Assembly: GCA_014239155.1 (NCBI GenBank)
Contig: JAAZZQ010000072.1
Location: 1 to 64,000 of the forward strand
DNA: 64,000 bases
DNA from: Lachnospiraceae bacterium
Lineage (GTDB): Bacteria > Bacillota > Clostridia > Lachnospirales > Lachnospiraceae
Reading direction: 5' to 3'
Numbering within the stretch: the stretch's first letter is position 1; each line of letters opens with the position of its first letter. The notes below the pieces were generated by a model. It saw only the letters and a list, made by a program, of their open reading frames with translations. It searched no databases and was not told the DNA's origin. Of the stretch, positions 18,769 through 48,016 are shown in pieces. The position numbers and the translations under genes were made by a program.

Positions 18769-20967
18769 ATGGCAGAGAGACGTAGAAATCAAAGAGTCAG
18801 CACAAGAGCCGACAGAAAAAAGAGACGCAGACACAGAGCAAGTTTAAACAAAGTGAAATCAATGAAGCTGGCAGTGATGATGCTGATCATACTGCTGGCT
18901 TTTGCGGGATTGGGGGGACGTTTGTATGTGCTTGCCCGAGATAATCAGAATACATATCAGAAAAAGATTTTGTCACAACAGCGTTATGATTCCAAGACAT
19001 TGCCTTTTAAGCGGGGAAATATTCTTGATGTGAACGGGACAATTCTTGCGGCGAGCGAGAAAGTGTATAATGTGATTCTTGACTGTAAGGTTATGCTTGA
19101 TGATGAGTTGAATGAGGAACCTACATTAAATGCACTTTCTGAGTGTTTTGGATTGGATTTGTCGGAGTTACGAAAATTTGTAAAGGAAAATCCCAACTCA
19201 CAGTATCGTGTGCTTAAGAAAAGGATTTCTTATGATGAGATGAGTCCTTTTTTGGAGCGGAAAAATACACATAATGAAGAGGCTTCTAAAAGAAAGGGAG
19301 ATGAGAAGATTGGCATTATTGACGGTGTGTGGTTTGAGGAGGAATATATTAGGCGCTATCCTAACAAAACACTTGCCTGTGATGTCATTGGCTTTACCGG
19401 AACAGATAACAATGGTACATTCGGCCTAGAAGAGTACTACAATGATACCCTCAATGGTACGAACGGAAGGGAATATGGATATCTCAATGACGATGCGACA
19501 TTAGAGCGCACCACAGTGCCGGCGGTAGATGGGAGCACACTTGTAACCACAATTGATGCCAATATTCAGGCGATCTGTGAGAAATATATTAGACAGTTTA
19601 ACGAAGAACATTTGAATGAGGCAAGGGAGGGTCTTGGCGCATTCAATATTGCTGTGATTATTCAGGATTGTACAAACGGCGATATTAAGGCAATGGCAAG
19701 CTATCCAGATTTTGACTTGAACAATCCAAAAGATTTGTCTGCTTATTATTCGGCAGAAGAGCTTGCTCAGTTAGAGTCAAACCAAAAAGAATATTATAAA
19801 GTATTAAATGAATTATGGCGTAATTTTTGTATATCGGATACCTACGAACCGGGGTCTACGGCCAAGGCAATTACACTGGCTACGGGAATTGAGACTGGGA
19901 GGATTCTTGGAAATGAATCCTATTCGTGCGGCGGTGCACTAAGTGTAGGAGGTCATAATATTCGCTGTAATGTTCGCTCTGGTCATGGGACGCTTGGAGT
20001 CAGCGGTGCTTTGGAGCAGTCTTGTAATGTGGCCTTTATGAAAATGGGTGAGGCGATTGGTAAGAAACTTCTATTGCAGTTTCAACAGATTTTTAATATT
20101 GGTTTAAAGACAAATATTGATCTTGCTGGGGAAGCCAAAACAGCGTCAGTGGTGTTTAATGAAAATTCGATGAATGCTTCAGAACTTGCGACTGCTTCTT
20201 TTGGACAAGGGTATAATGTCACAATGATTGAGATGATTACAGCGTTTTCTTCTATTGTCAATGGGGGATATTACTATGAGCCGCATGTAGTGAGTAAGAT
20301 TACAAATTCTAATGGAGATACCATTAAAAATATTGAACCTAGAGTGTTAAAACAGACAATATCTGCAACGACTTCGGAACAGATGCGTCAATACTTGTAC
20401 GCCTCAGTTGCACAGGGAACAGGAAAGTCGGCGCGCCCAGCAGGGTATGCGATTGGCGGCAAGACAGGGACTGCGGAGATGGTTCCACGTGACCATACAA
20501 ATTATGTGGTTTCTTTTATTGGATTTGCACCGGCAGATAATCCCCAGATTGCAATTTACTGTGTGGTAGACCGACCGAATGTGGCAGACCAACCCCATGC
20601 GACATACGCGACAGGAATTGTTAGAAATATTTTGACAGAGGTACTTCCTTATCTTCACATTGCCAAGACAGAAGAAATGACGATTGCGGAGCAGGAAGAG
20701 ATTGACAGACTTCTTGGAGGTGTTGTGCAAGGAGAGACACCGGAAGGTGAAGATGGGAATACTCCCGAGGGAGACTCTGCGGAGGGGCAACAGGCGCCAA
20801 ATGGAGAGGACAATAATCCATCTGAAGGGGAAGGCAGTGGTGCGCCTGCCTATGTGGTTGATCCGGATACAGGCGAGCTGGTGAATCCAGTCACAGGGGA
20901 GAAGGCACAGATGGATTACAGTACAGAGGATAGTAATGATAATTTAAATGATAATAGTGGTGGATAA
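18769..20967 (+). CDS. Class B penicillin-binding protein (FtsI/PBP2B-like transpeptidase)
   Basis: A 732-residue membrane-anchored D,D-transpeptidase. It has a very basic N-terminus and one membrane segment (~35-55). A PBP dimerisation region with GRL and RGNILD follows, then the transpeptidase domain. The active-site triad is complete: STAK (Ser363), SCN (418-420) and KTG (565-567). The tail after ~residue 650 is acidic and rich in Gly, Pro and Asn, with repeated DPDTGE/NPVTGE-type units; no PASTA domain is seen. The frame is open to GTG 18754, but AGGTGA before ATG 18769 fits better. It is probably the septal transpeptidase FtsI, though SpoVD-type use is possible. Family R repeat begins at its stop codon. 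Confidence 0.92.
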   Translation: MAERRRNQRVSTRADRKKRRRHRASLNKVKSMKLAVMMLIILLAFAGLGGRLYVLARDNQNTYQKKILSQQRYDSKTLPFKRGNILDVNGTILAASEKVYNVILDCKVMLDDELNEEPTLNALSECFGLDLSELRKFVKENPNSQYRVLKKRISYDEMSPFLERKNTHNEEASKRKGDEKIGIIDGVWFEEEYIRRYPNKTLACDVIGFTGTDNNGTFGLEEYYNDTLNGTNGREYGYLNDDATLERTTVPAVDGSTLVTTIDANIQAICEKYIRQFNEEHLNEAREGLGAFNIAVIIQDCTNGDIKAMASYPDFDLNNPKDLSAYYSAEELAQLESNQKEYYKVLNELWRNFCISDTYEPGSTAKAITLATGIETGRILGNESYSCGGALSVGGHNIRCNVRSGHGTLGVSGALEQSCNVAFMKMGEAIGKKLLLQFQQIFNIGLKTNIDLAGEAKTASVVFNENSMNASELATASFGQGYNVTMIEMITAFSSIVNGGYYYEPHVVSKITNSNGDTIKNIEPRVLKQTISATTSEQMRQYLYASVAQGTGKSARPAGYAIGGKTGTAEMVPRDHTNYVVSFIGFAPADNPQIAIYCVVDRPNVADQPHATYATGIVRNILTEVLPYLHIAKTEEMTIAEQEEIDRLLGGVVQGETPEGEDGNTPEGDSAEGQQAPNGEDNNPSEGEGSGAPAYVVDPDTGELVNPVTGEKAQMDYSTEDSNDNLNDNSGG

Positions 20968-21098
20968 CGGTTCAGACAGGTCTGCGCATTTACTGCGCTG
21001 ACCGTATCAAAACATAGAGCGTGGAAGCATCCAGCCCCCCGCCAAAGACGATTTTCAATGGGCTGGATGCCGTAACAGTGAAGGTATCTGAACTGTTA
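20965..21098 (+). repeat. Dispersed structured repeat, family R, copy 1
   Basis: The outer arms are TAACGGTTCAG (20965-20975, overlapping the PBP stop codon) and CTGAACTGTTA (21088-21098). Hairpin 1 is GGTC-GCGC/GCGC-GACC with loop ATTTACT, followed by CCGT and AAAACAT. Hairpin 2 is GCATCCAGCCC/GGGCTGGATGC. A competing 3' hairpin, GTAACAGT/ACTGTTAC, shares bases with the outer arm. The same layout occurs at 25557 and 47864. Confidence 0.7.
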
Positions 21099-21162
21099 CA
21101 ATGAAGGAGTCAGCCCAACACAGAACTGAGCAGATTTGTTTTAACATATATACAAACCTGTA

Positions 21163-21197
21163 TTCATAAAATAATAGTGATATAAAAATTTTATGAA
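21163..21197 (+). repeat. Family E-like hairpin, copy 3 (short form)
   Basis: TTCATAAAA (21163-21171) and TTTTATGAA (21189-21197) form a perfect 9-bp stem. The loop carries TAGTGATATAAA, matching the family E loop although the stem sequence differs. It ends 12 bases before the next start codon and abuts its ribosome site. Confidence 0.5.
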
Positions 21198-21209
21198 ATA
21201 GAGGTAAAA

Positions 21210-22964
21210 ATGGCGAACCAGAACAGTACAGGAAGACGGAATATGACCATACAGAAAAAAAAGACCTTTGTACTGTGTGCGGTGTTGGTGGTGATGCTGT
21301 TGCTGCTTAGTGTGCGTGTAGGATATTTAATGTTGATGCGCTCGGATTATTACACGGCGCGCGCCACGGATTTACATGAGCGAGAGCGAGACATTAAGGC
21401 TGCAAGGGGAAGAATTATTGATGCGACAGGAACTGTCTTGGCAGATAATAAAACTGTCTGTACCATTTCCGTGATTCACAGCCAGATTCAAGATCCAGAA
21501 CAAGTAATTGATGTGTTGTGTCGCGAATTAGAGCTTTCTGAGGAATATGTGCGCAAGCGCGTGGAGAAATACAGTGCCAGAGAACGCATAAAAAGTAATG
21601 TGGAGAAGGAAATCGGGGATAGAATACGAAATTATGATATGGCAGGAGTGAAAGTGGATGAGGACTATAAACGGTACTATCCATATGATGATTTGGCATC
21701 TAAGGTGCTAGGTTTTACAGGGGGAGATAATCAAGGCATTATCGGTCTGGAAGTGGCTTATGAAAAGTATTTGACAGGCAAAAAAGGACAGATTCTCACA
21801 CTGACAGATGCGAGAGGGATTGAGCTGGATGGCATGGGGGAACGAAGAAAAGAGCCGATAGCAGGAAAAGATCTTTATATTAGTCTTGATGTAAATATTC
21901 AGAAGTATGCGACACAGCTTGCAAAGCAGGCATATGAGACAAAACAGGCAGCCGGAGTGTCTATTATTGTAATGAATGTCAATAATGGTGAGATTCTTGC
22001 AATGGTGGATGTGCCAGAGTTTCATTTAAATCAACCATACACGTTAATAGAGGAGTTTCAAGTGCAGCAGGAGACTACTGAGGAGAGCACGCAGGATTTG
22101 TTGAATAAAATGTGGAGAAATGGCTGTATTAATGATACTTATGAGCCGGGGTCCACATTTAAAATTATCACAGCGGCGGCAGGGCTAGAGAGCGGAGCCG
22201 TTCGTCTGGAAGATAATTTCTCATGTCCGGGGTTTATCATTGTGGACGACCGAAAGATTCGCTGTCATAAGGTCGCCGGACATGGTGCGGAAGATTTTAC
22301 TCATGCGGTTATGAACTCCTGCAATCCAGTATTTATTGCAGTAGGGTTAAGAATTGGTGTGGAGCGTTACTATGAGTATTTTACAAAGTTTGGATTGAAG
22401 CAAAGGACAGGAATTGACCTGCCGGGAGAGGCAGGAACAATTATGCATCAGCTAGATAAAATTGGTGATGTGGAACTTGCAACGATTTCATTTGGGCAGT
22501 CTTTTCAGATTACACCAGTGCGGTTGATGACAACAGTAGCAGGATTGATTAATGGTGGAAATCTAGTGACGCCCCATTTTGGAGTCAAGGCAGTAAATGC
22601 AGACGGCACGTCTGTTGATGAGTTTGCATATCCAATATCAGAAGGGATTATATCGGCAGATACGACGGAAAAATTAAAATATGTTTTGGAGCAGGTCGTG
22701 GAAAATGGTGGTGGTAAGAATGGCTATGTAGAAGGCTTTCGCATAGGTGGCAAGACAGCTACAAGTCAGACACTTCCGAGGGGAAGTGGTAGATATATCG
22801 CTTCCTTTCTGGGATTTGCACCGGCAGATAACCCGAAAGTGATGGCGCTTGCCATAATTGATACCCCGCAAGGAACTTATTATGGAGGTCAGATAGCAGC
22901 GCCGGTTGTGCGTCAATTATTTGAGAATATTCTCCCATATTTGGATAAGATTGGTTATCAGTGA
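21210..22964 (+). CDS. Class B penicillin-binding protein (SpoVD/PBP2-like), KTG motif altered to KTA
   Basis: A 584-residue transpeptidase. It has a short basic N-terminus, one membrane segment (~20-45), a dimerisation region with RGRIIDATG, and a transpeptidase domain. STFK (Ser315-Lys318) and SCN (370-372) are intact. The third motif reads Lys515-Thr-Ala-Thr (GGKTATSQ) instead of Lys-Thr-Gly. No PASTA domain is present. AGAGGT precedes the ATG. It sits between another class B PBP and murD, so it may be the sporulation or elongation partner of the septal enzyme. It appears active otherwise: the frame is intact and the spacing of the motifs is normal. Confidence 0.9.
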   Translation: MANQNSTGRRNMTIQKKKTFVLCAVLVVMLLLLSVRVGYLMLMRSDYYTARATDLHERERDIKAARGRIIDATGTVLADNKTVCTISVIHSQIQDPEQVIDVLCRELELSEEYVRKRVEKYSARERIKSNVEKEIGDRIRNYDMAGVKVDEDYKRYYPYDDLASKVLGFTGGDNQGIIGLEVAYEKYLTGKKGQILTLTDARGIELDGMGERRKEPIAGKDLYISLDVNIQKYATQLAKQAYETKQAAGVSIIVMNVNNGEILAMVDVPEFHLNQPYTLIEEFQVQQETTEESTQDLLNKMWRNGCINDTYEPGSTFKIITAAAGLESGAVRLEDNFSCPGFIIVDDRKIRCHKVAGHGAEDFTHAVMNSCNPVFIAVGLRIGVERYYEYFTKFGLKQRTGIDLPGEAGTIMHQLDKIGDVELATISFGQSFQITPVRLMTTVAGLINGGNLVTPHFGVKAVNADGTSVDEFAYPISEGIISADTTEKLKYVLEQVVENGGGKNGYVEGFRIGGKTATSQTLPRGSGRYIASFLGFAPADNPKVMALAIIDTPQGTYYGGQIAAPVVRQLFENILPYLDKIGYQ

Positions 22965-23004
22965 TTATAGTTGTTATGGTAGGAAAAGGGTTGAAGTAGG
23001 AGTT

Positions 23005-24390: not shown

Positions 24391-24394
24391 TAAT

Positions 24395-25546: not shown

Positions 25547-25556
25547 AAGTAGATTT

Positions 25557-25706
25557 GTTACTGTTCACATAGGACTTAGCATTTACTGCTAAGTCCGTGC
25601 CAAAACATGCATATAGCAAGTAAAAATCCATTTGCGCAACGAATTTGTTCGTTTTGTAAATTTTGCATGGATTTTTATCTGTTACTGGAACGGAGTGAAC
25701 AGTAAC
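25557..25706 (+). repeat. Dispersed structured repeat, family R, copy 2 (best preserved)
   Basis: The outer arms GTTACTGTTCAC (25557-25568) and GTGAACAGTAAC (25695-25706) are perfectly complementary. Hairpin 1 is GGACTTAGC/GCTAAGTCC (25572-25596) with loop ATTTACT, followed by CCGT and AAAACAT. Hairpin 2 is TAAAAATCCAT/ATGGATTTTTA (25621-25677). A competing 3' hairpin, GTTACTG/CAGTAAC (25681-25706), would break the outer stem. It lies between ftsW and the murA promoter. Confidence 0.75.
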
Positions 25707-25725
25707 GTAGATTTTTTGTGAGTGG

Positions 25726-25756
25726 TTGACATTTTTAATGGCTTCCTGCATATAAT
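25726..25756 (+). promoter_or_regulatory. murA promoter
   Basis: TTGACA (25726-25731) and TATAAT (25751-25756) are both consensus but separated by 19 bases, slightly long. The predicted start is ~15 bases before the ribosome site, giving a short leader. It makes murA at least partly independent of the upstream dcw genes. Confidence 0.7.
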
Positions 25757-25788
25757 ATTATGATTGATATAATGATGTGGTGAAGCCT

Positions 25789-27102
25789 ATGACCCATTGT
25801 AGGGATAATGAGTCGATATGGATAGAGGGAAAAAGACCGCTGAATGGCAGAATACAGATACAAGGGTCTAAAAATGCAGCGCTTCCAATATTGGCGGCAT
25901 GTATGCTGATACCCGGGAAGTGCGTGCTAAAAGGCTGCCCGGATATCACTGATATCAAGTGTATGTGCAGTCTTTTGCAAAGCACTGGTGCAGAGGTGGA
26001 AATATGTGGTATGAAAACAGGAAATCAGATTACAGTCGATACGCGAAATGTGAGGAAGCACCGACTGCCTGAAAAATATGTTTCTGCCATGCGTTCTTCT
26101 GTGGTGCTGATGGGAGCGATGCTTGGACGACTCGGCGAGGTTTGTGTCAATTATCCCGGTGGCTGTGTGATTGGTGAGAGACCAATTGATTTGCATTTGT
26201 GTGGATTGGAAAAGCTTGGCGCACAAATATGGACGGAAGGAAATCATATCCATGCCTACGCTGATGAGTTGAGAGGTACAGTGATTGAACTGCCGTTTCC
26301 GAGTGTGGGGGCAACTCAAAATATTATTATGGCAGCGGTGACAGCGCAGGGGACGACCGTGATTAAAAATGCGGCGCGGGAGCCGGAAGTTACAGAGTTG
26401 TGTAAATTTTTGAATCGGGCAGGCGCCAAGATTGATTATGCAGGTGCTTTTTTGCCAGAGGGAAGGATTGTCATTTATGGGATAGAATTATCTAGGCTTC
26501 ATGAAGTTTCATATGAGATTATCACAGACCGAATCGTTGCCGGAACGTATTTGTTCGCCGCACTGGCAGCAGGCGGAGAGGTGACACTGGAAAACATTCC
26601 CATCGGACAGCTAGATAGTACCTGTGATATTATAACAAGGATGGGGGCGGCTATCGCCTTAGATGAGGACAGGAATGAGGTGACGATTTATGCAGATGAC
26701 AGAAGTAAAATTTTCAATATTCCATACGTAGAAACACAGGTGTATCCGGCATTTCCAACGGATCTTCAATCACCACTGATCGCGGCAGCATGTATGGCGA
26801 AAGGACAGTTAAAAGTTCGGGAAAAGATTTTCTCTAGCAGATTCCGCATTGTGGAAGAGCTGCGGCGCATGGGTGCAGATGTGACTGTGGAAGGAGATTT
26901 GGCGGTGGTTACAGGTGGCAGAGAACTAGAAGGGCGCACTGTCATAGCGCGGGAGCTAAGAGGAGGTGCGGCGCTTGTCATAGCAGGTTTGTGTGCGTCT
27001 GGTATTACAACGGTTACAGATTCAGGCTATATTGAACGAGGATATCAGGATATTGTAGGAGATCTTACAAAGCTTGGAGCGCGTATCAAAAATAGAAATT
27101 GA
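25789..27102 (+). CDS. murA: UDP-N-acetylglucosamine 1-carboxyvinyltransferase
   Basis: A 437-residue enolpyruvyl transferase that starts peptidoglycan synthesis by adding enolpyruvate from PEP to UDP-GlcNAc. It has SKNAALPILAA at the N-terminus, the catalytic loop PGGCVIGERPIDLHL with Cys126 (the residue alkylated by fosfomycin in sensitive enzymes) and FPTDLQSP. The frame is open to GTG 25777, but GGTGA five bases before ATG 25789 supports the later start. It is located between two family R repeats and has its own promoter. Confidence 0.96.
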   Translation: MTHCRDNESIWIEGKRPLNGRIQIQGSKNAALPILAACMLIPGKCVLKGCPDITDIKCMCSLLQSTGAEVEICGMKTGNQITVDTRNVRKHRLPEKYVSAMRSSVVLMGAMLGRLGEVCVNYPGGCVIGERPIDLHLCGLEKLGAQIWTEGNHIHAYADELRGTVIELPFPSVGATQNIIMAAVTAQGTTVIKNAAREPEVTELCKFLNRAGAKIDYAGAFLPEGRIVIYGIELSRLHEVSYEIITDRIVAGTYLFAALAAGGEVTLENIPIGQLDSTCDIITRMGAAIALDEDRNEVTIYADDRSKIFNIPYVETQVYPAFPTDLQSPLIAAACMAKGQLKVREKIFSSRFRIVEELRRMGADVTVEGDLAVVTGGRELEGRTVIARELRGGAALVIAGLCASGITTVTDSGYIERGYQDIVGDLTKLGARIKNRN

Positions 27103-27104
27103 TA

Positions 27105-27241
27105 TGTTCACAGACCCAACAAAGCAGAGAGAATCGTGCGCCAAATTGATGCCCTTTATCAATTTGTGTGCATAATTGTTATTGTTCACACCACAAATAT
27201 GCGAAGTTGTGCCGAAATCAAGCAGGGGTGTGAACAGTAAC
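27105..27241 (+). repeat. Divergent family R-like repeat (copy 3) in the ftsQ leader
   Basis: It starts TGTTCACAGACCC and ends GGTGTGAACAGTAAC. Inner hairpin CAAATTGAT/ATCAATTTG lies at 27142-27166. A 15-bp 3' hairpin pairs GTTATTGTTCACACC (27178-27192) with 27227-27241 (one G-T pair). The 3' edge is nine bases before the ftsQ ribosome site. The CCGT...AACAT element of other copies is not clear here. Confidence 0.55.
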
Positions 27242-27260
27242 ATTGATATGGAGAAAGGGC

Positions 27261-34615: not shown

Positions 34616-36937
34616 ATGCTAAAAGTAAATGGAAAAAATGCAGTGAAAAAAGGTGAGATAATTTTTCAGGAAGGCGATGAACTGAAGCAAATTGGAATTG
34701 TTCTCTCTGGAAAAGTACTCATGCAGGGAAAAAATGTAAAAATGGTTCGACCGCATGGAAGCTATCTGGCATTGAATTTGTTGAACAATTCAGTTTATAG
34801 TGCAACTTATACTGCGCTCGAAGATTCTGTGATTTATGCACTTCCTGTGGAAGGAGAGATGACAATACAGAACATCATTGCTAGGAATGCGGATTATCGT
34901 GCGATTATGGTTTCCTCTCAGTTTCGGATAGCAGTGGAACTTTATCGCATTAAGTCCAGCTTTAATGAGCGTGCGGCAAGGTTGTGTTCCTTTGCACAGA
35001 GAAGTTATGAGGAGTACAAGGAACTTTGTGCGACGGTAGGTGTTCCAGTGGCGGGCATGGAAGAACTTGAGGATCTGCAACCATTCGAGGAGACACAACA
35101 GGATAATGAATACAAAATTACATACTATGAAGAGGGTGCTAAAATTCCATTGAATGCAACAAAAATGTACTTTTCTTATAGTGAGGCGATGGCACGTTTT
35201 CAGGTTGATGAAATTACAGAACTTGTGATAGCATTTCTGGAAGAGTGTTCTGAGGCGACAGAATATATTAAGAATGTGATGGATATAATGTGCTTGCGTG
35301 CGAAGAATAATCTGTTTGAGCATATTTATGAGAAGGCGTATGAGATGAAGGAGAAAACAGATATTCCAAGCGAGATACATACACTTTTAAGCGGTATTAT
35401 TGATGAGATTGCATTTCATCATAAGGAGTTAAGAAGCCAGTCGCAAGATATACCAGAATTTTGCATGGAGTCATTTCAAGAGAAGGCAAACAACCTAGTA
35501 TCAGGGGAGGCGCTTGTCGTAGAGACAAAATCACAGGAAGAGCGGGAGGAAGAAATCCAAAGGGATGTAGTATCATTGAAAGGTTCTATGGAACAGATTA
35601 TAAAGTTTGCGGGATTTGATGAGACAGAGAGTGAGACACTTAAAAAGAATATAGACTATCTGGTGAATGCGCCAGACAGAATGTCTGTGGAGGATGATAT
35701 TAAGAAGGCAAAGAAGACGATTACACCATTAGTATTTAAGCTCTATTTATTCTGTTATCGAAAGATTAGGGAAAGACTACTCGAGCCGCCCAAAGCAGTT
35801 GAACTGTTTATGAATTATGGTATGTTGGATGAGCGTTTGCTGGATGAGGAGCATTTACAGTTTTTATGTGGTATTGAGCCGGAAGTGAATGAAGGTCCAT
35901 GTCAGGTAGTTACTATGATGGAGTGGCTTGACATGATATATGAAGGAAAACGCGATCCCTCCAAGAGTGAATTTGATGAGGACTATGTGGAAAATCTGCG
36001 CACACGAAAAAAGCAGGGTGAGATTACAGAGGCGGAACAGAAAGAGCTGTTTAAAAATATGGATTGCCGCGTAGAATATGAGATTATGAATATGCAGATG
36101 AGCAATTCTCGTACACTGTACGGACAACCGTCTTCCTATATGCCGATTCTCTACAAGGAAGCAATTTTTGGGTATCTTGACAAAATACTTGTAACCAAAA
36201 AGAAGATCAACGAGAGTGTGCTGCACTTCTCAAAATTGGATTACTCTGTATTTTATAGGGAAGTTATCTATTCCAATACAGAACTTAAGATTTTCAATGA
36301 GACAGTGATGAAAAATGTGTATCCAGATGTAATATTGTTTCCGCTGTTTGGAACAAACGCGTCTATGTGGCAAGAGATTGGAGGAAAAAATAAAGGAACA
36401 CCGGGGCGATTTTGCTTTCCAATTATGACAAGCTCTAATATTGATGATTTGATGGTAAAATTGTTTGGGCGTTTTCGCTGGGAATTGTGTCGCTGTATCC
36501 AAGGTATGGCATGGAACGATGTCAAAGTGAAATCGCTTACCTCAGAATATATGGATTATATTCAGTTTTACCGGAAAAATCGAGACTTGTCAGAAGAAGC
36601 GCGGGATAAAGTAAAATTGCAAATTCAAAAGGCAAGAAATAATTCCAGAGAGACATTTTTGATTGACTATGAATCTTGGATTAAAAATGAGGCAAACGGC
36701 TCTATGAAAATGAATAAAGTGGCACGCGAGATTCTTGCGACTTACTGCCCATTTGAAAAAGAGCTTAGAATGAAACTGAATGCCCAGAGACCATACGAGG
36801 TGGCACAGGCACGCGGTTTCCGAAATTCACAGAAAAAGAGACAGGAGTTTGAACTTAAGCTTAAGGCATTACAGAAGGTGACACAAAAAGTTCCAGCTGA
36901 GATGATGAATACCTACAAATTTTATGCAGATATGTAA
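34616..36937 (+). CDS. Large uncharacterised protein with cNMP-binding-like N-terminal domain
   Basis: A 773-residue soluble protein that I do not recognise as a named family. Residues ~1-90 have the pattern of a cyclic-nucleotide-binding beta-roll (KKGEIIFQEGDELKQIGIVLSGKVLM, then Gly-Ser at a turn and EDSVIYALP). The usual phosphate-binding Gly-Glu...Arg-(Ser/Thr/Ala) cassette is not evident, so the ligand is unknown. Residues ~90-370 are mostly helical and acidic. The middle (~480-640) contains aromatic-rich alpha/beta sequence, including NVYPDVILFPLFGTNASMWQE. The end is a basic helix. No signal peptide, membrane segment or helix-turn-helix was seen. It follows the phosphopantetheinyl transferase with a GGAGG site, and a strong terminator ends the unit. 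Confidence 0.7.
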   Translation: MLKVNGKNAVKKGEIIFQEGDELKQIGIVLSGKVLMQGKNVKMVRPHGSYLALNLLNNSVYSATYTALEDSVIYALPVEGEMTIQNIIARNADYRAIMVSSQFRIAVELYRIKSSFNERAARLCSFAQRSYEEYKELCATVGVPVAGMEELEDLQPFEETQQDNEYKITYYEEGAKIPLNATKMYFSYSEAMARFQVDEITELVIAFLEECSEATEYIKNVMDIMCLRAKNNLFEHIYEKAYEMKEKTDIPSEIHTLLSGIIDEIAFHHKELRSQSQDIPEFCMESFQEKANNLVSGEALVVETKSQEEREEEIQRDVVSLKGSMEQIIKFAGFDETESETLKKNIDYLVNAPDRMSVEDDIKKAKKTITPLVFKLYLFCYRKIRERLLEPPKAVELFMNYGMLDERLLDEEHLQFLCGIEPEVNEGPCQVVTMMEWLDMIYEGKRDPSKSEFDEDYVENLRTRKKQGEITEAEQKELFKNMDCRVEYEIMNMQMSNSRTLYGQPSSYMPILYKEAIFGYLDKILVTKKKINESVLHFSKLDYSVFYREVIYSNTELKIFNETVMKNVYPDVILFPLFGTNASMWQEIGGKNKGTPGRFCFPIMTSSNIDDLMVKLFGRFRWELCRCIQGMAWNDVKVKSLTSEYMDYIQFYRKNRDLSEEARDKVKLQIQKARNNSRETFLIDYESWIKNEANGSMKMNKVAREILATYCPFEKELRMKLNAQRPYEVAQARGFRNSQKKRQEFELKLKALQKVTQKVPAEMMNTYKFYADM

Positions 36938-36967
36938 AAAAATGAGTGCTTAGGCACTCATTTTTTT
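36936..36967 (+). terminator. Bidirectional terminator
   Basis: Seven A residues plus TGAGTGC (36936-36949) pair perfectly with GCACTCA plus seven T residues (36954-36967) around loop TTAG. The symmetrical A and T tracts allow termination from both sides, fitting the convergent genes on either side. Confidence 0.92.
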
Positions 36968-36997
36968 ACGAAAATTTATATGGTTTGTATCTCTGCT

Positions 36998-37026
36998 GTA
37001 ACAGGTTAATTTGACTGAACTGTTAC
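36998..37026 (-). repeat. Partial family R repeat (3' hairpin only) at the end of the CNNM gene
   Basis: GTAACAG (36998-37004) and CTGTTAC (37020-37026) flank a loop that ends CTGAA. The string CTGAACTGTTAC is identical to the 3' end of copy 1 near 21099. The stop codon of the reverse-strand CNNM gene (37006-37008) lies in the loop, so the repeat overlaps coding DNA. Confidence 0.5.
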
Positions 37027-38815: not shown

Positions 38816-39197
38816 TAACATTATAGTGTTTTACCAGATATTTCTGTGTTTAGAATCATTAATATTTTGTAAAAATCATTTCTTTTTTGTTACAATATGT
38901 TATACTGGCTAAGGTGTATTTGAAAAATGCTTTCTGACAGATGTGTGTTATAGCTTGTGGGAGATTTGTGTCAAATGAAGGAGGCGTAGCGGGCTGCATC
39001 GACTAAATTTGGCGCAAATATCACACAAAGTAAAACGTGCAGATGACGGGAATAATTTTTTAAACACGCCTTAGAGCGTATGGATGAAAGTCTGTTACGC
39101 TTAGGAACTGTAAAAAAACTGATACAATCTGTGTTGGATATTTTCTTACAGTTTTTAGGAAACAGTGGGTAATAATAGAAGAACGAGGAGAGTGATT
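38816..39197 (+). other. Long leader of the GH25 gene: promoter, conserved-loop hairpin, family E copy
   Basis: No gene was seen in ~380 bases. An extended -10 (TG, one base, TATACT at 38901-38906) lies ~290 bases before the GH25 start. A 16-bp imperfect hairpin, GAGATTTGTGTCAAAT (38961-38976) with ATTTGGCGCAAATATC (39007-39022), has a 30-base loop containing GGCGTAGCGGGCT. The same loop string (11 of 13 bases) is found in the 17115-17140 loop. A family E repeat follows at 39101-39158. I could not match the leader to a riboswitch class I know. Confidence 0.6.
39101..39158 (+). repeat. Dispersed hairpin repeat, family E, copy 4
   Basis: TTAGGAACTGTAAAAAAA (from 39101) pairs with TTTTCTTACAGTTTTTAG (ending 39158) over ~17 positions with a few G-T pairs and one mismatch. 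The loop starts CTGATACAATCT, which also reads as a -10 TACAAT preceded by TG. It ends 40 bases before the GH25 start codon. Confidence 0.6.
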
Positions 39198-40279: not shown

Positions 40280-40426
40280 ATGAAACATATTAAGACATTG
40301 ACAACTAGAGACTATAAGGAATCTGTAAAAAAGGGTGGATGTGGTGAGTGTCAGACATCTTGTCAGTCAGCTTGCAAAACATCTTGCACAGTTGGAAATC
40401 AGAGCTGTGAGAATACAAACAAGTAA
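40280..40426 (+). CDS. scfA: SCIFF ranthipeptide precursor (six cysteines in forty-five residues)
   Basis: A 48-residue peptide beginning MKHIKTLTTRDYKESV with cysteines at positions 21, 24, 28, 32, 36 and 43. Its GGCGECQTSCQSACKTSC core (one stretch) is nearly invariant in the SCIFF family. It is the substrate of the radical SAM enzyme encoded 150 bases downstream, which forms thioether bonds from Cys sulfur to non-alpha carbons (ranthipeptide chemistry; family knowledge). Its biological role is unresolved in Clostridia. AAGGAGG precedes the ATG. The gene is too short for routine ORF calling but is clear from composition and context. Confidence 0.97.
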   Translation: MKHIKTLTTRDYKESVKKGGCGECQTSCQSACKTSCTVGNQSCENTNK

Positions 40427-40428
40427 TT

Positions 40429-40517
40429 TTGCAGTAGCATTTTGTCACAGGTATAATGATTTCACAATAAAAGAATTGGAAATAAGCAGCGGTTCACATT
40501 AAAAATCGCTGCTTATT
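40429..40517 (+). promoter_or_regulatory. scfB promoter candidate followed by leader hairpin
   Basis: TTGCAG (40429-40434), 17 bases, then TATAAT (40452-40457). About 25 bases downstream, AATAAGCAGCG (40481-40491) pairs perfectly with CGCTGCTTATT (40507-40517). No T-run follows, so the hairpin may be a processing or stability element, or a weak terminator separating scfA from scfB. Confidence 0.6.
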
Positions 40518-40533
40518 ATGTGTGTGTTTAAGT

Positions 40534-40564
40534 GTAGGAACTGTTTGCGATTAGGTGATACAGG
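40534..40564 (+). repeat. Family E repeat, copy 5 (left arm and loop only)
   Basis: GTAGGAACTGTTTGCGATTA then GGTGATACAGG matches the left arm and loop of family E, but no complementary right arm follows. It lies 13 bases before the scfB start. Confidence 0.45.
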
Positions 40565-40576
40565 AAGGGAAAAAAA

Positions 40577-41965: not shown

Positions 41966-41994
41966 GCTGCAGAAAGTAAAGGAGTATACGGGCA

Positions 41995-44232
41995 ATGAAA
42001 AAAAGTAAAGGGATAACTACTTTGGTCCTGACAGTGCTGATTATGGCAGTATTAGGATTTGTGGCAATATGGGGGATTGGCACAAAAAAGGCAGGTTCTG
42101 CATCGGGAATTCGGCAGGGACTTGACCTTGCAGGCGGCGTGAGCATCACATATCAGGTGATAGGTGATGAAAATCCCTCTGCGGAGGATATGGGAGATAC
42201 TATTTATAAACTGCAAAAGAGGGTGGAAACATACAGTACAGAAGCGCAGGTTTATCAAGAGGGTACTGACCGCATTAACATTGAGATTCCGGGTGTGTCA
42301 GATGCCAACTCAATTCTTGAGGATTTAGGCAGACCAGGTGCATTGTATTTTATTGCGCAGACAGATGCAGATGGCAATCAAAATTATTCTTATACTGGTT
42401 CAGGACTGACAGGATATTCCCTAGACAAGACAATCGAGGAGTTGCAGGCAGCAGGTAGTATTGTGTTGGAAGGAACAGATGTTGCGACCGCACAGGGCGG
42501 TTCTGGCAGTGACAATCTTGGAAACAGTCAGTTTGTTGTGGACCTTACATTTACAGGGGAAGGGACAACAAAATTCGCCGATGCGACAACAAAAGCATTT
42601 GCGAAGGGAGAGACAATTGGTATCTACTATGACGGAGACTTTATCAGTGTACCCACTGTGCAGGCAGCGCTTACAGATGGCAAGGCTCAGATTACAGGTA
42701 TGGGTAGTTTTGAGGAGGCAGAAAAAATAGCAAGTCAGATAAGAATTGGCGGCTTGAAGCTGGAGTTGGAGGAGTTGCGTTCTAATGTGGTAGGAGCACA
42801 GCTTGGTGAGGAAGCAGTAAAGACAAGCTTACAGGCAGCGTTGTTTGGTTTGATCATTATTGCGGTATTTATGATTGTAGTGTATCGCTTGCCTGGTTTA
42901 TCTTCTGTGATTGCGCTGATTATTTATACCTGTTTGATTGTGATTTCCCTCAATATATTTGAAATTACGCTGACACTTCCGGGAATTGCAGGTATTATTC
43001 TTTCAATTGGTATGGCAGTGGATGCAAATGTTATTATTTTTGCGCGTATCAGGGAAGAAGTTACGGCAGGAAAGACAGTTCGGAGTGCAATTGAAGCAGG
43101 CTTTCAGAAGGCGCTTTCTGCAATTGTGGACGGCAATGTGACGACTTTGATTGCTGCTTTTGTGTTGGGGACTAAAGGTTCAGGTACTGTGAAAGGGTTT
43201 GCTTACACGCTTGCGCTTGGTATTATACTTTCTATGTTTACAGCACTTGTTGTTACAAGACTGATTCTTCGGGCATTTTTTGCGGTGGGCTTTAAAGATG
43301 TGAAATACTATGGTACAAATAAGGAAAGGGGAACAGTTAATTTTCTTGGAAAGAAAAATATATTTTTTGCTGCTTCTATTGCAGTGATTGTTCTCGGTTT
43401 TGTATTTATGGGTATCAATGGCGTTTCCACTGGCAAAGTGCTGAATTACAGCCTTGACTTTGTGGGTGGTACTTCGACAAATGTTACGTTTAATGAAGAC
43501 ATGGAATTATCCGCAATTGATGCAAATGTGGTTCCTGTGTTCAGTGATGTGACAGGAGATGGTGCAGTACAGGTACAAAAAGTAGCGAATTCTAACGAGG
43601 TAATTTTTAAGACGAGAGAGCTGAATGTGGAGGAGCGGCAGACTCTGGAAGATGCACTGGTTGAAAAATTTGCGGTCAATAAGGAGCTAATCACAGCAGA
43701 AACAATCAGTTCGACAATTAGCTCAGAGATGAAAAGCGATGCTGTTGTTGCAGTTATCATTGCCACAATCTGTATGTTGATTTATATATGGTTCCGGTTT
43801 AAAGATATCCGATTTGCGGCAAGCTCTGTTGCGGCATTGGTACATGATGTACTTGTTGTACTTGCTTTCTATGCTGTTGCAAAGGTGTCTGTGGGCAGTA
43901 CATTTATTGCATGTATGCTTACAATTGTCGGTTATTCTATCAATGCGACGATTGTTATTTTTGACCGTATCAGAGAAAATCTTGGCAGTATGTTAAAGAA
44001 GGATACGCTAGAAGATTTGGTCAACAGAAGTATCAGCCAAACTCTTTCAAGAAGTATTTTTACATCTCTGACTACTTTTGTTATGGTTGCGGCACTATAT
44101 GTTCTGGGTGTGACTTCCATCAAGGAATTCGCACTGCCGTTAATGGTAGGTATTGTATGCGGTACGTACTCTTCTGTGTGCATAACGGGTGCACTTTGGT
44201 ATGTGCTTAGGACAAGAATAAAGAAGGCATAA
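41995..44232 (+). CDS. secDF: Fused protein translocase subunit SecDF
   Basis: A 745-residue membrane protein with about twelve segments. SecD comes first (RQGLDLAGGVSITYQV after the first membrane segment, then a P1-type external domain to ~residue 270 and five segments). SecF follows after ~residue 445 (LNYSLDFVGGTSTNVTF and AVDANVIIF/NATIVIFDRI-type conserved membrane sequence). SecDF uses the proton gradient to help SecYEG export proteins. The fusion is common in Firmicutes. AAAGGAG precedes the ATG; the gap to scfB is 29 bases, so it is cotranscribed. A terminator follows. Confidence 0.96.
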   Translation: MKKSKGITTLVLTVLIMAVLGFVAIWGIGTKKAGSASGIRQGLDLAGGVSITYQVIGDENPSAEDMGDTIYKLQKRVETYSTEAQVYQEGTDRINIEIPGVSDANSILEDLGRPGALYFIAQTDADGNQNYSYTGSGLTGYSLDKTIEELQAAGSIVLEGTDVATAQGGSGSDNLGNSQFVVDLTFTGEGTTKFADATTKAFAKGETIGIYYDGDFISVPTVQAALTDGKAQITGMGSFEEAEKIASQIRIGGLKLELEELRSNVVGAQLGEEAVKTSLQAALFGLIIIAVFMIVVYRLPGLSSVIALIIYTCLIVISLNIFEITLTLPGIAGIILSIGMAVDANVIIFARIREEVTAGKTVRSAIEAGFQKALSAIVDGNVTTLIAAFVLGTKGSGTVKGFAYTLALGIILSMFTALVVTRLILRAFFAVGFKDVKYYGTNKERGTVNFLGKKNIFFAASIAVIVLGFVFMGINGVSTGKVLNYSLDFVGGTSTNVTFNEDMELSAIDANVVPVFSDVTGDGAVQVQKVANSNEVIFKTRELNVEERQTLEDALVEKFAVNKELITAETISSTISSEMKSDAVVAVIIATICMLIYIWFRFKDIRFAASSVAALVHDVLVVLAFYAVAKVSVGSTFIACMLTIVGYSINATIVIFDRIRENLGSMLKKDTLEDLVNRSISQTLSRSIFTSLTTFVMVAALYVLGVTSIKEFALPLMVGIVCGTYSSVCITGALWYVLRTRIKKA

Positions 44233-44243
44233 GATTTCGTTTG

Positions 44244-44272
44244 GGCTGCGGCTAATGCCGCGGCCTTTTCCT
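44244..44272 (+). terminator. Terminator after secDF
   Basis: GGCTGCGGC (44244-44252) pairs with GCCGCGGCC (44257-44265, one G-T pair) around loop TAAT, followed by TTTTCCTT. Confidence 0.85.
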
Positions 44273-44321
44273 TAGAAATGATGAACAAATGTATAGTTTT
44301 TGAAAGAAGGAGGCGCGTCGA

Positions 44322-45014
44322 ATGAAGACTATTACAAAAAAATATGGGATTTCGGCGGCTGTTTTAAAGTGGATTGCAGTTGTGACAATGATAATCGATC
44401 ATTTTGCAGTGGCTGTTTATCCACAGTTTGTAAGTTATGAGTACAGTGTTTATTATATTATGCGAAAAATAGGTAGAATTGCATTTCCCATCTATTGTTT
44501 TTTGCTTGTGGAAGGTTTTTTTCATACGAAAAATGTAGTAAAATATTTTCGGAACTGCTTTTTGTTTGCCATATTGTCAGAAATTCCTTTTAATATGGCA
44601 ATTTTTGGGAAAGTGCTTTATCCGAGGGGGCAGAATGTGTATTTCACGCTGTGTATTGGACTGGCGACTCTAATGATTCTCAATAGATTAAAGGAGCGTC
44701 AAGCACCACAGTATATGTTGCTGCGGATAGTTATTATTGTATTGGCAGCGGGAGCAGGGCAAATTTTGGATGTGGATTATCATTGGAAAGGCGTTTTATT
44801 TATTATAATGTTTTATTATATGCGTAATATGCAAGAGTGGATCCGCAATCTTGTTGGAATTTGTGCATTTGCATATGAGGTTACAGCGCCACTTGCATTT
44901 ATTCCAATTCATTTTTATAATGGAGCGCGCGGCAGGCAGATGAAGTATCTTTTTTATGCAATTTATCCAATACATTTACTCATTTTTGGTCTAATAAGAT
45001 TATATTTGAGTTAG
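44322..45014 (+). CDS. TraX-family membrane protein
   Basis: A 230-residue protein with six to seven hydrophobic segments. It matches the TraX family: LKWIAVVTMIIDHFAVAV near the N-terminus, the KIGRIAFPIYCFLLVEGFFHT block, LSEIPFNMA and a C-terminal IYPIHLLIFGLI. TraX of the F plasmid acetylates pilin. Chromosomal homologues in Firmicutes have no established function and are probably membrane acyltransferase-like. No conjugation genes are nearby. AGAAGGAGG precedes the ATG. A promoter for the next gene overlaps its stop codon. Confidence 0.85.
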   Translation: MKTITKKYGISAAVLKWIAVVTMIIDHFAVAVYPQFVSYEYSVYYIMRKIGRIAFPIYCFLLVEGFFHTKNVVKYFRNCFLFAILSEIPFNMAIFGKVLYPRGQNVYFTLCIGLATLMILNRLKERQAPQYMLLRIVIIVLAAGAGQILDVDYHWKGVLFIIMFYYMRNMQEWIRNLVGICAFAYEVTAPLAFIPIHFYNGARGRQMKYLFYAIYPIHLLIFGLIRLYLS

Positions 45015-45033
45015 AACTTTAAAGAACTATAAT
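45006..45033 (+). promoter_or_regulatory. Promoter of the thioesterase-recJ unit
   Basis: TTGAGT (45006-45011), 16 bases, then TATAAT (45028-45033), overlapping the end of the traX-like gene. Confidence 0.7.
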
Positions 45034-45097
45034 AAAAGTGGGAGTTTTCTCCAGTTGAGATAAAATGACAATGATGAATAGAGAAGGAGTAACAAGA

Positions 45098-45811
45098 ATG
45101 TACACTTATGAAATTAATGCGGGATACAGTGTGATGGATGCATCTCTACATATGAAAATTCCTGCGATACTGGATTGTTTTCAGGATGCGGCAATCTTTG
45201 AGGCAGAGAATGGAAAAATTACAGTTGCGTATCTCTATAACAGACAACTTGCATGGCTTCTCAGTTCTTGGCAGATTGTGATTGACAGGTGCCCAAAGCT
45301 AAACGAAAAAGTTAAAATAACAACAATGCCCTATGCTTTTAAGGGTTTCTTGGGATACCGTGGCTTTACCATGACAGGTGAGGATGGTGTAGTTATTACC
45401 AAGGCGGCATCTATCTGGACTTTAATGAATACAAAAAAGCAATGTCCATCGCGGTTGACACAAGAACTTCAAGAGGGATATGAGATGGGAGAAAAACCTG
45501 TCATGGACTATGCACCAAGGAAGATTGCTTTGTTGGGGGAACCTCAAATTAAGGAGCAGTTTAAAGTCAGAAAATTTCAAATTGATTCCAACCAACATAT
45601 GAATAATGTAGTGTATGTTAAGCTTGCAATGGAGGTGTTGCCAGAAGATATTTCTATCAAAGAGTTGAGAGCAGAGTATAAAAAACCTGCACATTTAGGA
45701 GAGGAAGTGGTGGCTGCAGTCTGCAAGGCAGAGGGTAAATATCAGGTGGTTTTGCAGAATCCGGCGGGGGATATCTATGCGGTAGTTGAATTTTCGGTAT
45801 TAGAAAGGTAG
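45098..45811 (+). CDS. Acyl-ACP thioesterase
   Basis: A 237-residue enzyme of the acyl-ACP thioesterase (Fat) family, with two tandem hotdog domains. The N-terminal half has DCFQDAAIFEAEN and WLLSSWQIVIDRCPKLNEKV; the C-terminal half has KFQIDSNQHMNNVVYVKLA with the conserved Asp-x-Asn-x-His. It hydrolyses acyl-ACP to free fatty acids. Bacterial members are common in Lachnospiraceae and other anaerobes. An upstream ATG at 45065 opens the frame, but AAGGAG before 45098 fixes the start. It is 11 bases before recJ, so probably cotranscribed. Confidence 0.92.
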   Translation: MYTYEINAGYSVMDASLHMKIPAILDCFQDAAIFEAENGKITVAYLYNRQLAWLLSSWQIVIDRCPKLNEKVKITTMPYAFKGFLGYRGFTMTGEDGVVITKAASIWTLMNTKKQCPSRLTQELQEGYEMGEKPVMDYAPRKIALLGEPQIKEQFKVRKFQIDSNQHMNNVVYVKLAMEVLPEDISIKELRAEYKKPAHLGEEVVAAVCKAEGKYQVVLQNPAGDIYAVVEFSVLER

Positions 45812-45822
45812 GGTATAGACAG

Positions 45823-47625
45823 ATGAGTAGATGGATGGTAGCTGCAAAGAGGGCTGATTTTGATGCGGTTGCTAAGAAGCATCAGATTAGCCCTGTGCTT
45901 GCACGGATAATCAGGAACAGAGATGTAACAGATGACAAAGATATTGACAAGTTTTTAAATGGTACAAGGAAAGATTTGTATGCACCAGAACTTTTGAAAG
46001 ATATGGAGAAAGCAGTAGAGATTCTTCTGGAAAAAATAGCGCAGGGAAAACAGATACGAATTATAGGGGATTATGATATTGATGGAATTTGCTCTACTTA
46101 TATTTTGTACAAAGGACTTACAGCGTGCGGTGCGCGGGTAGACACAGCGATTCCGCACAGAATACGCGATGGATACGGACTGAATGACCATTTGATACAG
46201 GAAGCGTATGATTCTGGAACAGACACAATCATTACATGTGACAATGGAATTGCCGCTTATGATCAGATTGTGTTTGCCAATGAATTGGGTATGTGTGTGG
46301 TGGTGACAGACCACCATGAAGTTCCTTACGATGAAGTAAATGGAGAGCGGCAGTATAAGGTGCCGCCGGCAAAAGCAGTTGTTGATCCCAAGCAGGAGGA
46401 TTGTAACTATCCTTTTCCAGAAATCTGCGGTGCAGTTGTTGCATACAAACTAATTTTGATGCTCATTGCAAAACATACACAAAAAAATTGGCGTGATGTA
46501 ATGGAGTCTGAGGTTGGTCTTGAACTTTTGGAATTTGCAGCGTTTGCGACAATTGGAGATGTGATGGAGTTACGCGACGAAAACCGCATTCTGGTTAAAA
46601 GTGGTTTGGAGTTAATGGCACATACAAGAAATATAGGATTGGGAGCACTAATGCAGGCGACGGGAACAGACCCAATGCACATAAAACCCTATACCATTGG
46701 TTTTATTCTTGGTCCTTGTTTAAATGCGACTGGAAGATTGGACACTGCGGTCAATGCGCTGGAGCTTTTTCAAACTATAGATGTGGACAAAGCGGCAACC
46801 TTAGCAGGAGATTTAAAGGCTATGAACGATAGTAGAAAGGATCTTACTACAAAAGGTGTTAAGGAGGCTATAGAGCAGATAGAGGAGACAGGATTAGATA
46901 AAGATAAAGTGCTTGTTGTGTATCTTCCCGAGGTGCATGAGAGTCTTGCAGGGATTATCGCGGGCAGAATCCGTGAAAAATATTACAAACCAGTTTTTAT
47001 ACTTACGAGAGCGGAGGAGGGGGTAAAAGGTTCTGGGCGTTCTATTGAGGCGTTTCATATGTATGATGAGATGACAAAGTGTAAGGAGTTGTTCACAAAA
47101 TATGGCGGACACAAACTTGCAGCAGGATTGTCCTTGCCAGAAGAAAATGTGGAGATGTTTCGGCAGAAACTTAATGAGAACTGTCAGCTTACAGAGGGAG
47201 ATTTTGAACAAAAAGTGCTGATTGATGTGCCAATGCCAATGGCATACGCTAGCTTTCATTTTATTGCGGAACTTGAGAGACTGGAACCTTTTGGAAACGG
47301 CAATCCCAAACCGCAATTTGCACAAAAAAATATTCAATTTATCAGTGGAAAGTTGTTAGGGGCAAATCACAATGTTGGGAAATATACAGTTGCGGATGAG
47401 GAGGGCAGGCGATATGAGTTGATTTACTTTGGTGATATTGAGGCGTTTCATACATATGTGGAGACGAAATGCGGCAATAGCGCACTGGATTATCTGTATC
47501 GAATCCAGCGGGGAACTTTAGAGGCTGCTCCCGTGCCAATTGTGTTGTCGGTGGTGTATTATCCCGATATAAATGAATATAAGGGAACAGTCACATTGCA
47601 GATGGTGATGAAATATTACCAATAA
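45823..47625 (+). CDS. recJ: Single-stranded-DNA-specific exonuclease RecJ
   Basis: A 600-residue 5'-3' exonuclease of the DHH phosphoesterase superfamily. The metal-binding motifs are IIGDYDIDGICS (near residue 85), DNGIAAYDQ and VVTDHHEV (DHH). DHHA1 follows with a GGHKLAAG segment near residue 428, and then a C-terminal OB-like part. It acts in recombination and mismatch repair. Length is typical. No strong ribosome site is seen (ATAGACAG), suggesting translational coupling to the preceding gene. The gene is followed by a long non-coding stretch. Confidence 0.95.
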   Translation: MSRWMVAAKRADFDAVAKKHQISPVLARIIRNRDVTDDKDIDKFLNGTRKDLYAPELLKDMEKAVEILLEKIAQGKQIRIIGDYDIDGICSTYILYKGLTACGARVDTAIPHRIRDGYGLNDHLIQEAYDSGTDTIITCDNGIAAYDQIVFANELGMCVVVTDHHEVPYDEVNGERQYKVPPAKAVVDPKQEDCNYPFPEICGAVVAYKLILMLIAKHTQKNWRDVMESEVGLELLEFAAFATIGDVMELRDENRILVKSGLELMAHTRNIGLGALMQATGTDPMHIKPYTIGFILGPCLNATGRLDTAVNALELFQTIDVDKAATLAGDLKAMNDSRKDLTTKGVKEAIEQIEETGLDKDKVLVVYLPEVHESLAGIIAGRIREKYYKPVFILTRAEEGVKGSGRSIEAFHMYDEMTKCKELFTKYGGHKLAAGLSLPEENVEMFRQKLNENCQLTEGDFEQKVLIDVPMPMAYASFHFIAELERLEPFGNGNPKPQFAQKNIQFISGKLLGANHNVGKYTVADEEGRRYELIYFGDIEAFHTYVETKCGNSALDYLYRIQRGTLEAAPVPIVLSVVYYPDINEYKGTVTLQMVMKYYQ

Positions 47626-47693
47626 AGTGAAACGGCTATTGATTTATCTTTTGTTAAGAAAAATAATGTTATTTTTATGAAATAAACACATTT

Positions 47694-47804
47694 TTGACAC
47701 ATTTATTGGGTATAGTAATATACAGATAGTTGAAACACTCACTATCTCCCCCCTCATAAGAAAATATACAATAAGGGCCATGCTGTGCATGGTCCTTATT
47801 GTAT
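47694..47804 (+). ncRNA. Candidate small RNA: promoter plus strong 3' hairpin
   Basis: TTGACA (47694-47699), 16 bases, then TAATAT (47716-47721) form a promoter. About 40 bases after the predicted start, ATACAATAAGGGCCATGC (47766-47783) pairs with 47787-47804 over 18 bases with a single G-T pair and a three-base loop. Only T-rich, not pure T, sequence follows. The transcript would be ~75-90 bases without coding capacity. An alternative is that the hairpin is the recJ terminator and the promoter match is chance. Confidence 0.45.
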
Positions 47805-47863
47805 GTATTTCTTCTAATATTTTTTAATAGATTGTTGCAGTCTTTTATATCTGATATTGCGTT

Positions 47864-48016
47864 TACAGTTCAGCCTAGGACTTTGTACTACGCTACAAAG
47901 TCCGTAAGAGAACATAGTGGCAGAGGTGCGTCAAGCCACAGAACGTGACTTTGACACCACAAAGTGGTTTTGCATAGCTTGATGCTTGCAATAGAAAGCT
48001 GAAGGCTGAATTGCTA
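47864..48016 (+). repeat. Dispersed structured repeat, family R, copy 4
   Basis: The outer arms are TACAGTTCAGCC (47864-47875) and GGCTGAATTGCTA (48004-48016). Hairpin 1 is GGACTTTGT/ACAAAGTCC (47878-47903), followed by CCGT and, seven bases later, AACAT. Hairpin 2 is GCGTCAAGC with GCTTGATGC (one G-T pair). The layout and the CCGT...AACAT link are as in copies 1 and 2, although the stem sequences differ. Confidence 0.7.

Follow-up and report, generated by a model that had tools for sequence, protein, structure and literature searches.

The stretch of DNA analysed here (the window) comprises 64,000 nucleotides of a Lachnospiraceae bacterium (assembly GCA_014239155.1, contig JAAZZQ010000072.1, positions 1 to 64,000 of the forward strand) and contains, among genes of the cell wall and of division, three copies of a structured repeat that we call family R. 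Family R is a new family of IS66-like miniature inverted-repeat transposable elements (MITEs) with a conserved, covarying multi-hairpin fold, and is thus a structurally unusual new form of a known kind of element. The evidence makes it quite probable that these MITEs are non-autonomous, that they are served in trans by an IS66-type enzyme and that their fold is selected in the jumping lineage.

Family R in the window and beyond

The three copies, their flanks (base pairs, bp) and the parts of the first copy are as follows.

20964..21099, + strand: family R copy, 136 bp, between two penicillin-binding-protein genes; flanking 8-mers AGTGGTGG and AATGAAGG, alike at 5/8 positions
20979..21003, + strand: hairpin 1 of the 20964 copy, GGTCTGCGC ATTTACT GCGCTGACC
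21002..21005, + strand: CCGT, then AAAACAT, 3′ of hairpin 1 in the 20964 copy
21027..21070, + strand: hairpin 2 of the 20964 copy, 11-bp stem, inside which other family members have a tip hairpin
21072..21099, + strand: 3′ hairpin of the 20964 copy, formed between the 3′ end and an internal terminal-repeat copy, mutually exclusive with the outer stem
25549..25556, + strand: left target-site duplication of the 25557 copy, GTAGATTT
25557..25706, + strand: family R copy, 150 bp, ends GTTACTGTTCAC, with an FtsW/SpoVE-type gene on one side and an EPSP_synthase-family (MurA-type) gene on the other
25707..25714, + strand: right target-site duplication of the 25557 copy, GTAGATTT
47854..47861, + strand: left duplication flank of the 47862 copy, ATATTGCG, alike at 7/8 positions with the right flank
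47862..48017, + strand: family R copy, 156 bp, located between genes for a RecJ-type protein and a Mur ligase; hairpin 2 contains extra sequence
48018..48025, + strand: right duplication flank of the 47862 copy, AGATTGCG

The common architecture that the initial annotation saw in these copies is present, their ends falling one or two bases away from where it had placed them. From 5′ to 3′ the order of parts is an end repeat approximating GTWACNGTTCA, hairpin 1, CCGT, a few bases, AAAACAT or a similar motif, hairpin 2, which is topped by a small tip hairpin and whose TTTGCAT-like 3′ side is unpaired, and a third copy of the end repeat, which pairs with the 3′ end of the element. A covariance model, R1, was built from an alignment of 11 copies, all three window copies among them, with the structure supplied by the author; it scores the copies at 114.8 (20964–21099), 98.6 (25557–25706) and 97.3 bits (47862–48017). 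The folding energy lies far below that of shuffled sequences in two of them (z values of −4.77 and −7.76), the third, above the length limit of the shuffle test, having been folded without shuffles.

The family extends far beyond the window. In the window genome (4.57 Mb, 89 contigs), R1 gives 145 matches at E ≤ 1 and 132 at E < 1e-4, of which a few are fragments or overlap; 150 candidates were scored, so that 132 may be a lower bound. This amounts to about two copies per 64 kb genome-wide, which makes three in the window unremarkable. With the own genome included and at E ≤ 1e-4, matches occur in 31 of the 38 genomes of the genus and, under stricter filters, in 27 of 200 genomes of the family. 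The covariance-model scan of the genome and its relatives, which the initial annotation had proposed, thus returns many further copies. The flank analyses cover 122 of the 132 own-genome matches; these copies measure 68–170 bp (125–170 bp in 114 of them), short enough to leave no room for a transposase gene. In a subset of own-genome copies (for example L100, L101, L105 and L114), the 3′ half of hairpin 1 is swapped for a piece with a small hairpin of its own (TTATGGCTTTATAAGCCAC-like).

Transposition and a probable IS66 link

A perfect 8-bp duplication flanks 43 of the 122 own-genome copies, and a duplication with at most one mismatch flanks 69, against 0.4 and 1.0 in shuffled pairings. Other duplication lengths and offsets show no comparable excess, the largest being 6 against 0.7 (length 7, one mismatch) and 2 against 0.03 (length 9). 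The same signature appears in 61 elements at other loci, drawn from relatives and three viral contigs, where the duplication is exact in 27 and has at most one mismatch in 43 (shuffles, 0.36 and 0.70); three of the 61 are not independent of the own genome, the IMG/VR loci L296 and L297 having flanks in common with own-genome copies and L181 coming from G036, a genome very near to it. On the established reading, duplications of 8 bp point to a DDE-type enzyme that cuts with an 8-base stagger. Pairing of the terminal inverted repeats, which form the outer stem, reaches 89.8% of own-genome cells and 92.9% of those in the set from elsewhere. Copies with such ends are bracketed by 8-bp target duplications and occupy intergenic positions almost without exception.

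Some copies have moved recently in relatives. Genome G012 holds five letter-for-letter identical copies between five different perfect duplications, and a sixth copy one base off. Four identical copies are found in G149, three with perfect duplications and one with a mismatch, and four in G023, where the duplications are perfect in three and carry three mismatches in one. The copies of G148 differ by 0–6 bases and have perfect duplications; two of the four (L327 and L328) have their left flank and duplication in common and could represent a single insertion. Identical copies with different duplications in several genomes indicate recent movement in more than one genus. Three pairs of elements in the own genome stand head to tail, 0–9 bases apart (C73:55166-55448, C8:177406-177679 and C73:3296-3568), an arrangement that would arise if a new copy landed in the duplication of an older one.

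Two further features of the window had been assigned to family R.

27098..27105, + strand: left target-site duplication of the 27106 element, ATTGATAT
27106..27241, + strand: member of a second MITE family, whose full members are 142 bp long, with ends GTTACTGTTCAC or close to it and a large 3′ hairpin
27242..27249, + strand: right target-site duplication of the 27106 element, ATTGATAT
36998..37026, + strand: lone inverted repeat resembling a 3′ hairpin, GTAACAG...CTGTTAC, with no clear 8-bp duplication seen

The stretch 27105–27241, taken at first for a divergent copy of family R, belongs to a second repeat family whose ends are of the same kind; here too the 3′ end pairs with an internal copy of the end repeat. 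Relative to full members, the window copy seems to lack six bases at its 5′ (left) end. This second family has nine matches in the own genome, the 27106 element included, and matches in 17 of the 38 genus genomes. When the best position was taken in each of 20 stretches, without a shuffle control, a duplication of 8 bp with no more than a single mismatch appeared in 14 (in one of them with poorly matched ends, perhaps by chance), and six showed none. A 3′-hairpin-like repeat does exist at 36998–37026, which had been described as a 3′ fragment of family R, but it stands alone and is at most a candidate fragment of the family; R1 scores 23.3 bits (E 0.0016) over 36890–37026. Another short dispersed repeat lies at 38896–38976 of the window, with 81–85% identity to two other places in L133.

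The 27106 element has an empty counterpart. Lachnospiraceae bacterium IMSAGC_011 (L130), about 83–86% identical to the window over the region, shows ATTGATAT only once, with no element, at the site where the window carries the element between two ATTGATAT. This is the cleanest of three absences in L130: at the 25557 junction there is no insertion, but the 8-mer is not the same and a gap of 2 bases precedes it at a distance of a few bases, and at 20964 the element is absent from a junction that is not clean. A closer sequence, L129 (99.7% identical to the window), carries the same copies as the window. The stop codon (20965–20967) of the upstream penicillin-binding-protein gene (18754–20967) comes from the 20964 element; in L130, which lacks that element, the frame seems, read by eye, about 11 codons longer.

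Candidate enzymes were sought among the IS66 family (PF03050) and among relatives of the transposase of locus L218, a protein that Pfam assigns to IS66 (E 3.9e-25). PF03050 matches, often fragments, occur in 18 of the 38 genus genomes; the L218 transposase has relatives in 8 of these 38 and, at family level, in 10 of 150 genomes. Near-full-length relatives at more than 40% identity were found at nine loci, of which four have both ends together with an exact 8-bp duplication: the element of L218/L244 (2251 bp, ends GTTACTGTTCAC, duplication GCTGCTTT), that of L230 (2358 bp, ends GTTACTGTTCAC, duplication GCCGGAAT) and those of L246 and L257 (both with ends GTTACTTTTCAC, duplications TATCAATA and AAGAATAG, respectively). 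A 442-bp element in L227, an IS66 remnant, has GTAACAGTTCAG at both ends and no duplication. MITEs and some IS66-family elements have 12–24 bp of end sequence in common; for the second MITE family, the stretch is 18 bp (L218 against L358, L359 and L367) or 24 bp (L257 against L375 and L377). Within family R, an exact GTTACTGTTCAC stands at the left end of 9 and at the right end of 10 of the 122 own-genome copies, and 87 and 81 come within three mismatches of it. Judged from these shared ends, the likely mobiliser of family R is a transposase of the IS66 family, of the single-gene type that relatives carry. Such a transposase would act in trans and would by now have disappeared from the window genome.

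Several observations weigh against this assignment. No IS66 transposase was found in the window genome, by family or by protein, so that the mobiliser is one we infer. Only four of the nine loci above show both ends together with an exact duplication: L234 and L235 have such ends and no duplication, and L231, L245 and L252 yielded no complete element. Among 16 genomes of other genera that carry the element, 10 lack an IS66 match, including G148 with its perfect duplications, although these are mostly draft assemblies, in which multi-copy elements may be missing. No R1 match at E ≤ 1 was obtained in 20 loci fetched with IS66 genes, and the hairpins are therefore not a feature of those IS66 ends. 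The genomes with recent copies, which are drafts, give a mixed picture: PF03050 matches, some of them fragments, occur in G012, G023, G040, G139 and G149, and none in G148. The end-and-duplication scans of L298–L310 and L334–L337 revealed no element with MITE ends, and a lone-end pattern search of G012 and G023 no clear long element among the matches listed. In G139, three near-identical IS66 elements (L331–L333) of 2.77 kb have ends GTAAACGTCAAACCA and, by eye, 8-bp duplications in their flanks; they were rejected as partners because their ends (GTAAACGTC) are unlike those of the MITE, despite the many MITE copies in that genome.

The missing IS66 gene in the own genome and in 10 of the 16 others, and the different ends of the G139 elements, would also fit a MITE moved by a non-IS66 DDE family that makes 8-bp duplications, its likeness to IS66 ends being convergent. 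We consider this improbable, since IS66 elements of this genus and family combine the 12–24 bp of common end sequence with a duplication that is likewise 8 bp long. The idea of a miniature mobile element, raised in the initial annotation, is itself strongly supported by the 8-bp duplications, the empty site, the identical copies with different duplications and the IS66-like ends. Recent jumps in several genomes provide natural test material, and the shared IS66 ends name a candidate enzyme.

Conservation and possible role of the fold

The covariation was counted on alignments fitted to R1. In the own genome (109 distinct of 115 rows from 98 sources, E ≤ 1e-7, the set used also for the decay rates below), 89.1% of cells are paired and 493 cells have changed on both sides, against 173 in shuffles and 54–85 when partners are slid by 1–3 columns. 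The set from elsewhere (60 distinct rows) is 91.7% paired, with compensated change in 32 of 36 pairs (22.5 in shuffles) and 375 double-change cells, compared with 117 in shuffles and 43–60 with slid partners. The impression that inner stems vary yet remain paired is thus borne out by compensated changes in both sets. A model-fitted alignment leans to its model, and 24 elements were for this reason also aligned with MAFFT and folded by RNAalifold without guidance; the outer stem, hairpin 1 and the tip were recovered, with 13 of 24 pairs compensated, and the long stem of hairpin 2 was not. That the covariation is an artefact of a few founder subfamilies and a structure-fitted alignment is accordingly very improbable: the alignments were indeed fitted to a model built with a supplied structure, but the slid controls, which keep relatedness, reach 43–60 double-change cells against 375, the unguided fold recovers three helices, and stems that differ between genera still pair. 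The outer stem, hairpin 1, hairpin 2 with its tip and the 3′ hairpin are all kept across genera by compensating changes.

The competition between the 3′ hairpin and the outer stem, also pointed out at first inspection, is real, and the 3′ hairpin is the better kept of the two. It has 720 Watson–Crick cells of 798 in own-genome copies, against 655 for the outer stem, and at position 3 pairing fails (A–C counted as failure) in 3 of 114 copies, against 42 of 114 in the outer stem; this comparison used 114 of the 122 copies and identified the internal arm through its similarity to the end motif, a procedure somewhat biased towards pairing. As modelled, two alternative folds exist on paper. The tip loop has the form C-GNA-G in 50 of the 60 elements outside the own genome and in 51 of the 109 own rows.

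Across nine own-genome subfamilies (clusters of five or more copies), changes per site number 0.039 in hairpin 1, 0.050 in hairpin 2, 0.060 in the tip and 0.052 in the outer stem, against 0.063 in unpaired positions. Hairpin 1 shows 21 G–U against 8 A–C pairings within subfamilies, and a weak constraint on it is possible. The proposal of covariation in place of simple duplication therefore holds between subfamilies and genera, where stems are compensated; within subfamilies, stems change nearly as fast as loops, hairpin 1 somewhat more slowly. Decay near the loop rate within subfamilies, together with compensation between them and between genera, suggests that the main target of selection is the jumping lineage, not the resident copy. 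The fold thus seems to serve the element and not the host genes.

This bears on the association with cell-wall genes. Genes next to the window elements encode two penicillin-binding proteins, an FtsW/SpoVE-type protein, an EPSP_synthase-family (MurA-type) protein, an FtsQ-type protein and a Mur ligase, as well as a RecJ-type protein. Elsewhere in the genome, every third of the 30 best copies was sampled, and none of the 10 neighbours looks like a cell-wall gene: they comprise Leu-tRNA synthetase, QueH, an ABC transporter, TrmB (the same gene twice), a hydrolase, a peptidase M78, RtcB and two without a Pfam match. Rfam gave no match at the window elements at its gathering threshold, and none at the elements in six loci at E up to 1. 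In L280 (1186–1421 and 1687–1818, minus strand), a copy of G149 is flanked by a T-box-like match on one side and a Clostridiales-1-like match on the other, neither of which reaches the gathering score; in L276 (1032–1368, minus strand), a copy lies beside a cspA-leader match that exceeds it.

A cis-regulatory RNA that controls cell-wall and division genes through two alternative folds would be in keeping with a stable covarying fold, with the mutual exclusion of outer stem and 3′ hairpin and with the bias, given below, towards the sense direction beside co-directional genes. It is nevertheless extremely unlikely, in view of 132 matches genome-wide, of the near-neutral decay within subfamilies and of the lack of Rfam matches at the elements examined. 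Regulation of the cell wall in particular was rejected on the strength of the sampled neighbours, 0 of 10 of which look like cell-wall genes, and of the empty sites at the same genes in L130. Family R is not a regulator dedicated to cell-wall genes. The regulatory RNA linked to such genes that the initial annotation envisaged is not supported by these observations, and its caution that the link may reflect only the content of the window proved right; the link looks like chance.

What the fold does for the element is less firmly indicated. Of the two strands, the modelled one gives the more stable fold in 76 of 106 own-genome copies (p 1e-7) and in 38 of 60 others (p 8e-4). Beside co-directional genes, sense and antisense orientations stand at 76:35 (51:27 in the own genome and 25:8 in 47 of the 61 elements from other loci; combined p 1.2e-4). 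A further 27 own-genome copies are flanked by divergent genes and 6 by convergent ones, and open reading frames contain 2 of 120; these counts rest on simple open-reading-frame calls, not annotation, and two of the 122 copies have too little flank to be placed. G–U pairings clearly outnumber A–C only in hairpin 1 of own-genome copies (46:19); the ratio across genera is 8:8, and support for selection at the RNA level is accordingly weak. On this evidence we lean to the view, without claiming it, that the fold acts as transcribed RNA. The likeliest reason for its maintenance would be that the element often finds itself in host transcripts in the sense direction, where a compact folded RNA may be less harmful or may aid spread.

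A more general formulation is that of a transposon-borne structured RNA, a lineage of tiny elements dispersed over many Lachnospiraceae genera whose fitness depends on the precise multi-hairpin fold of its transcribed strand (or of a single DNA strand) and not on sequence, whole stems being swapped while the shape and the C-GNA-G tip stay; we regard it as a tentative reading with rather less than an even chance. If it is true, a gene-less element would spread, or stay hidden in its host, partly through the action of its fold. A somewhat lower probability attaches to the fold being a feature of the DNA strand, with single-stranded or cruciform hairpins that form during replication or transposition and whose compensation stems from hairpin-templated repair or from selection on the DNA fold, and a folded DNA strand may have a role in transposition. 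Stems that differ at many positions between genera with few G–U intermediates agree with this, as does the frequent C-GNA-G tip loop, a loop that is exceptionally stable in DNA; the greater stability of the modelled strand as RNA and the preference for the sense orientation speak against it.

Whichever molecule carries the fold, family R accounts for a class of unexplained intergenic sequence in abundant gut bacteria, and the covariance model finds it. It also poses a testable question, namely why a gene-less transposon keeps an RNA-like fold by compensation while its inserted copies decay. Should the fold aid jumping or protect the host transcript, a structure in a gene-less parasite would have a selectable function.

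Comparison with known systems

Family R is not described in the literature on MITEs, IS66 and Lachnospiraceae repeats as far as titles and the opening of abstracts show, most subscription journals lying outside the coverage. Structured intergenic repeats thought to be mobilised in trans include BOX and RUP of Streptococcus pneumoniae, Correia/NEMIS and ERIC, whose ends and duplications are other than those of family R. The bcr1–bcr3 repeats of the Bacillus cereus group resemble family R in being described as short, high-copy, intergenic and MITE-like, lying in untranslated regions and operons (PMC3446304, PMC6542083). Their mobility is linked there to a TTTAT motif (PMC6542083), in contrast to the 8-bp duplication of family R.

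Among the closest known systems is IS66 of the single-gene kind (PF03050), whose members in L218, L230, L246 and L257 have ends GTTACTGTTCAC or GTTACTTTTCAC and exact 8-bp duplications, as family R does. For two Paracoccus IS66 members, a table whose column heads are not visible in the part available gives the value 8, which we read as the length of the direct repeat (PMC3281130). Unlike IS66, the MITE is gene-less, and R1 detects none of its hairpins in the IS66 loci examined. The second Lachnospiraceae MITE family resembles family R in the kind of ends, in its 8-bp duplications and in a 3′ hairpin for which an internal copy of the end sequence supplies one arm, and differs from it in internal sequence and in the first hairpin.

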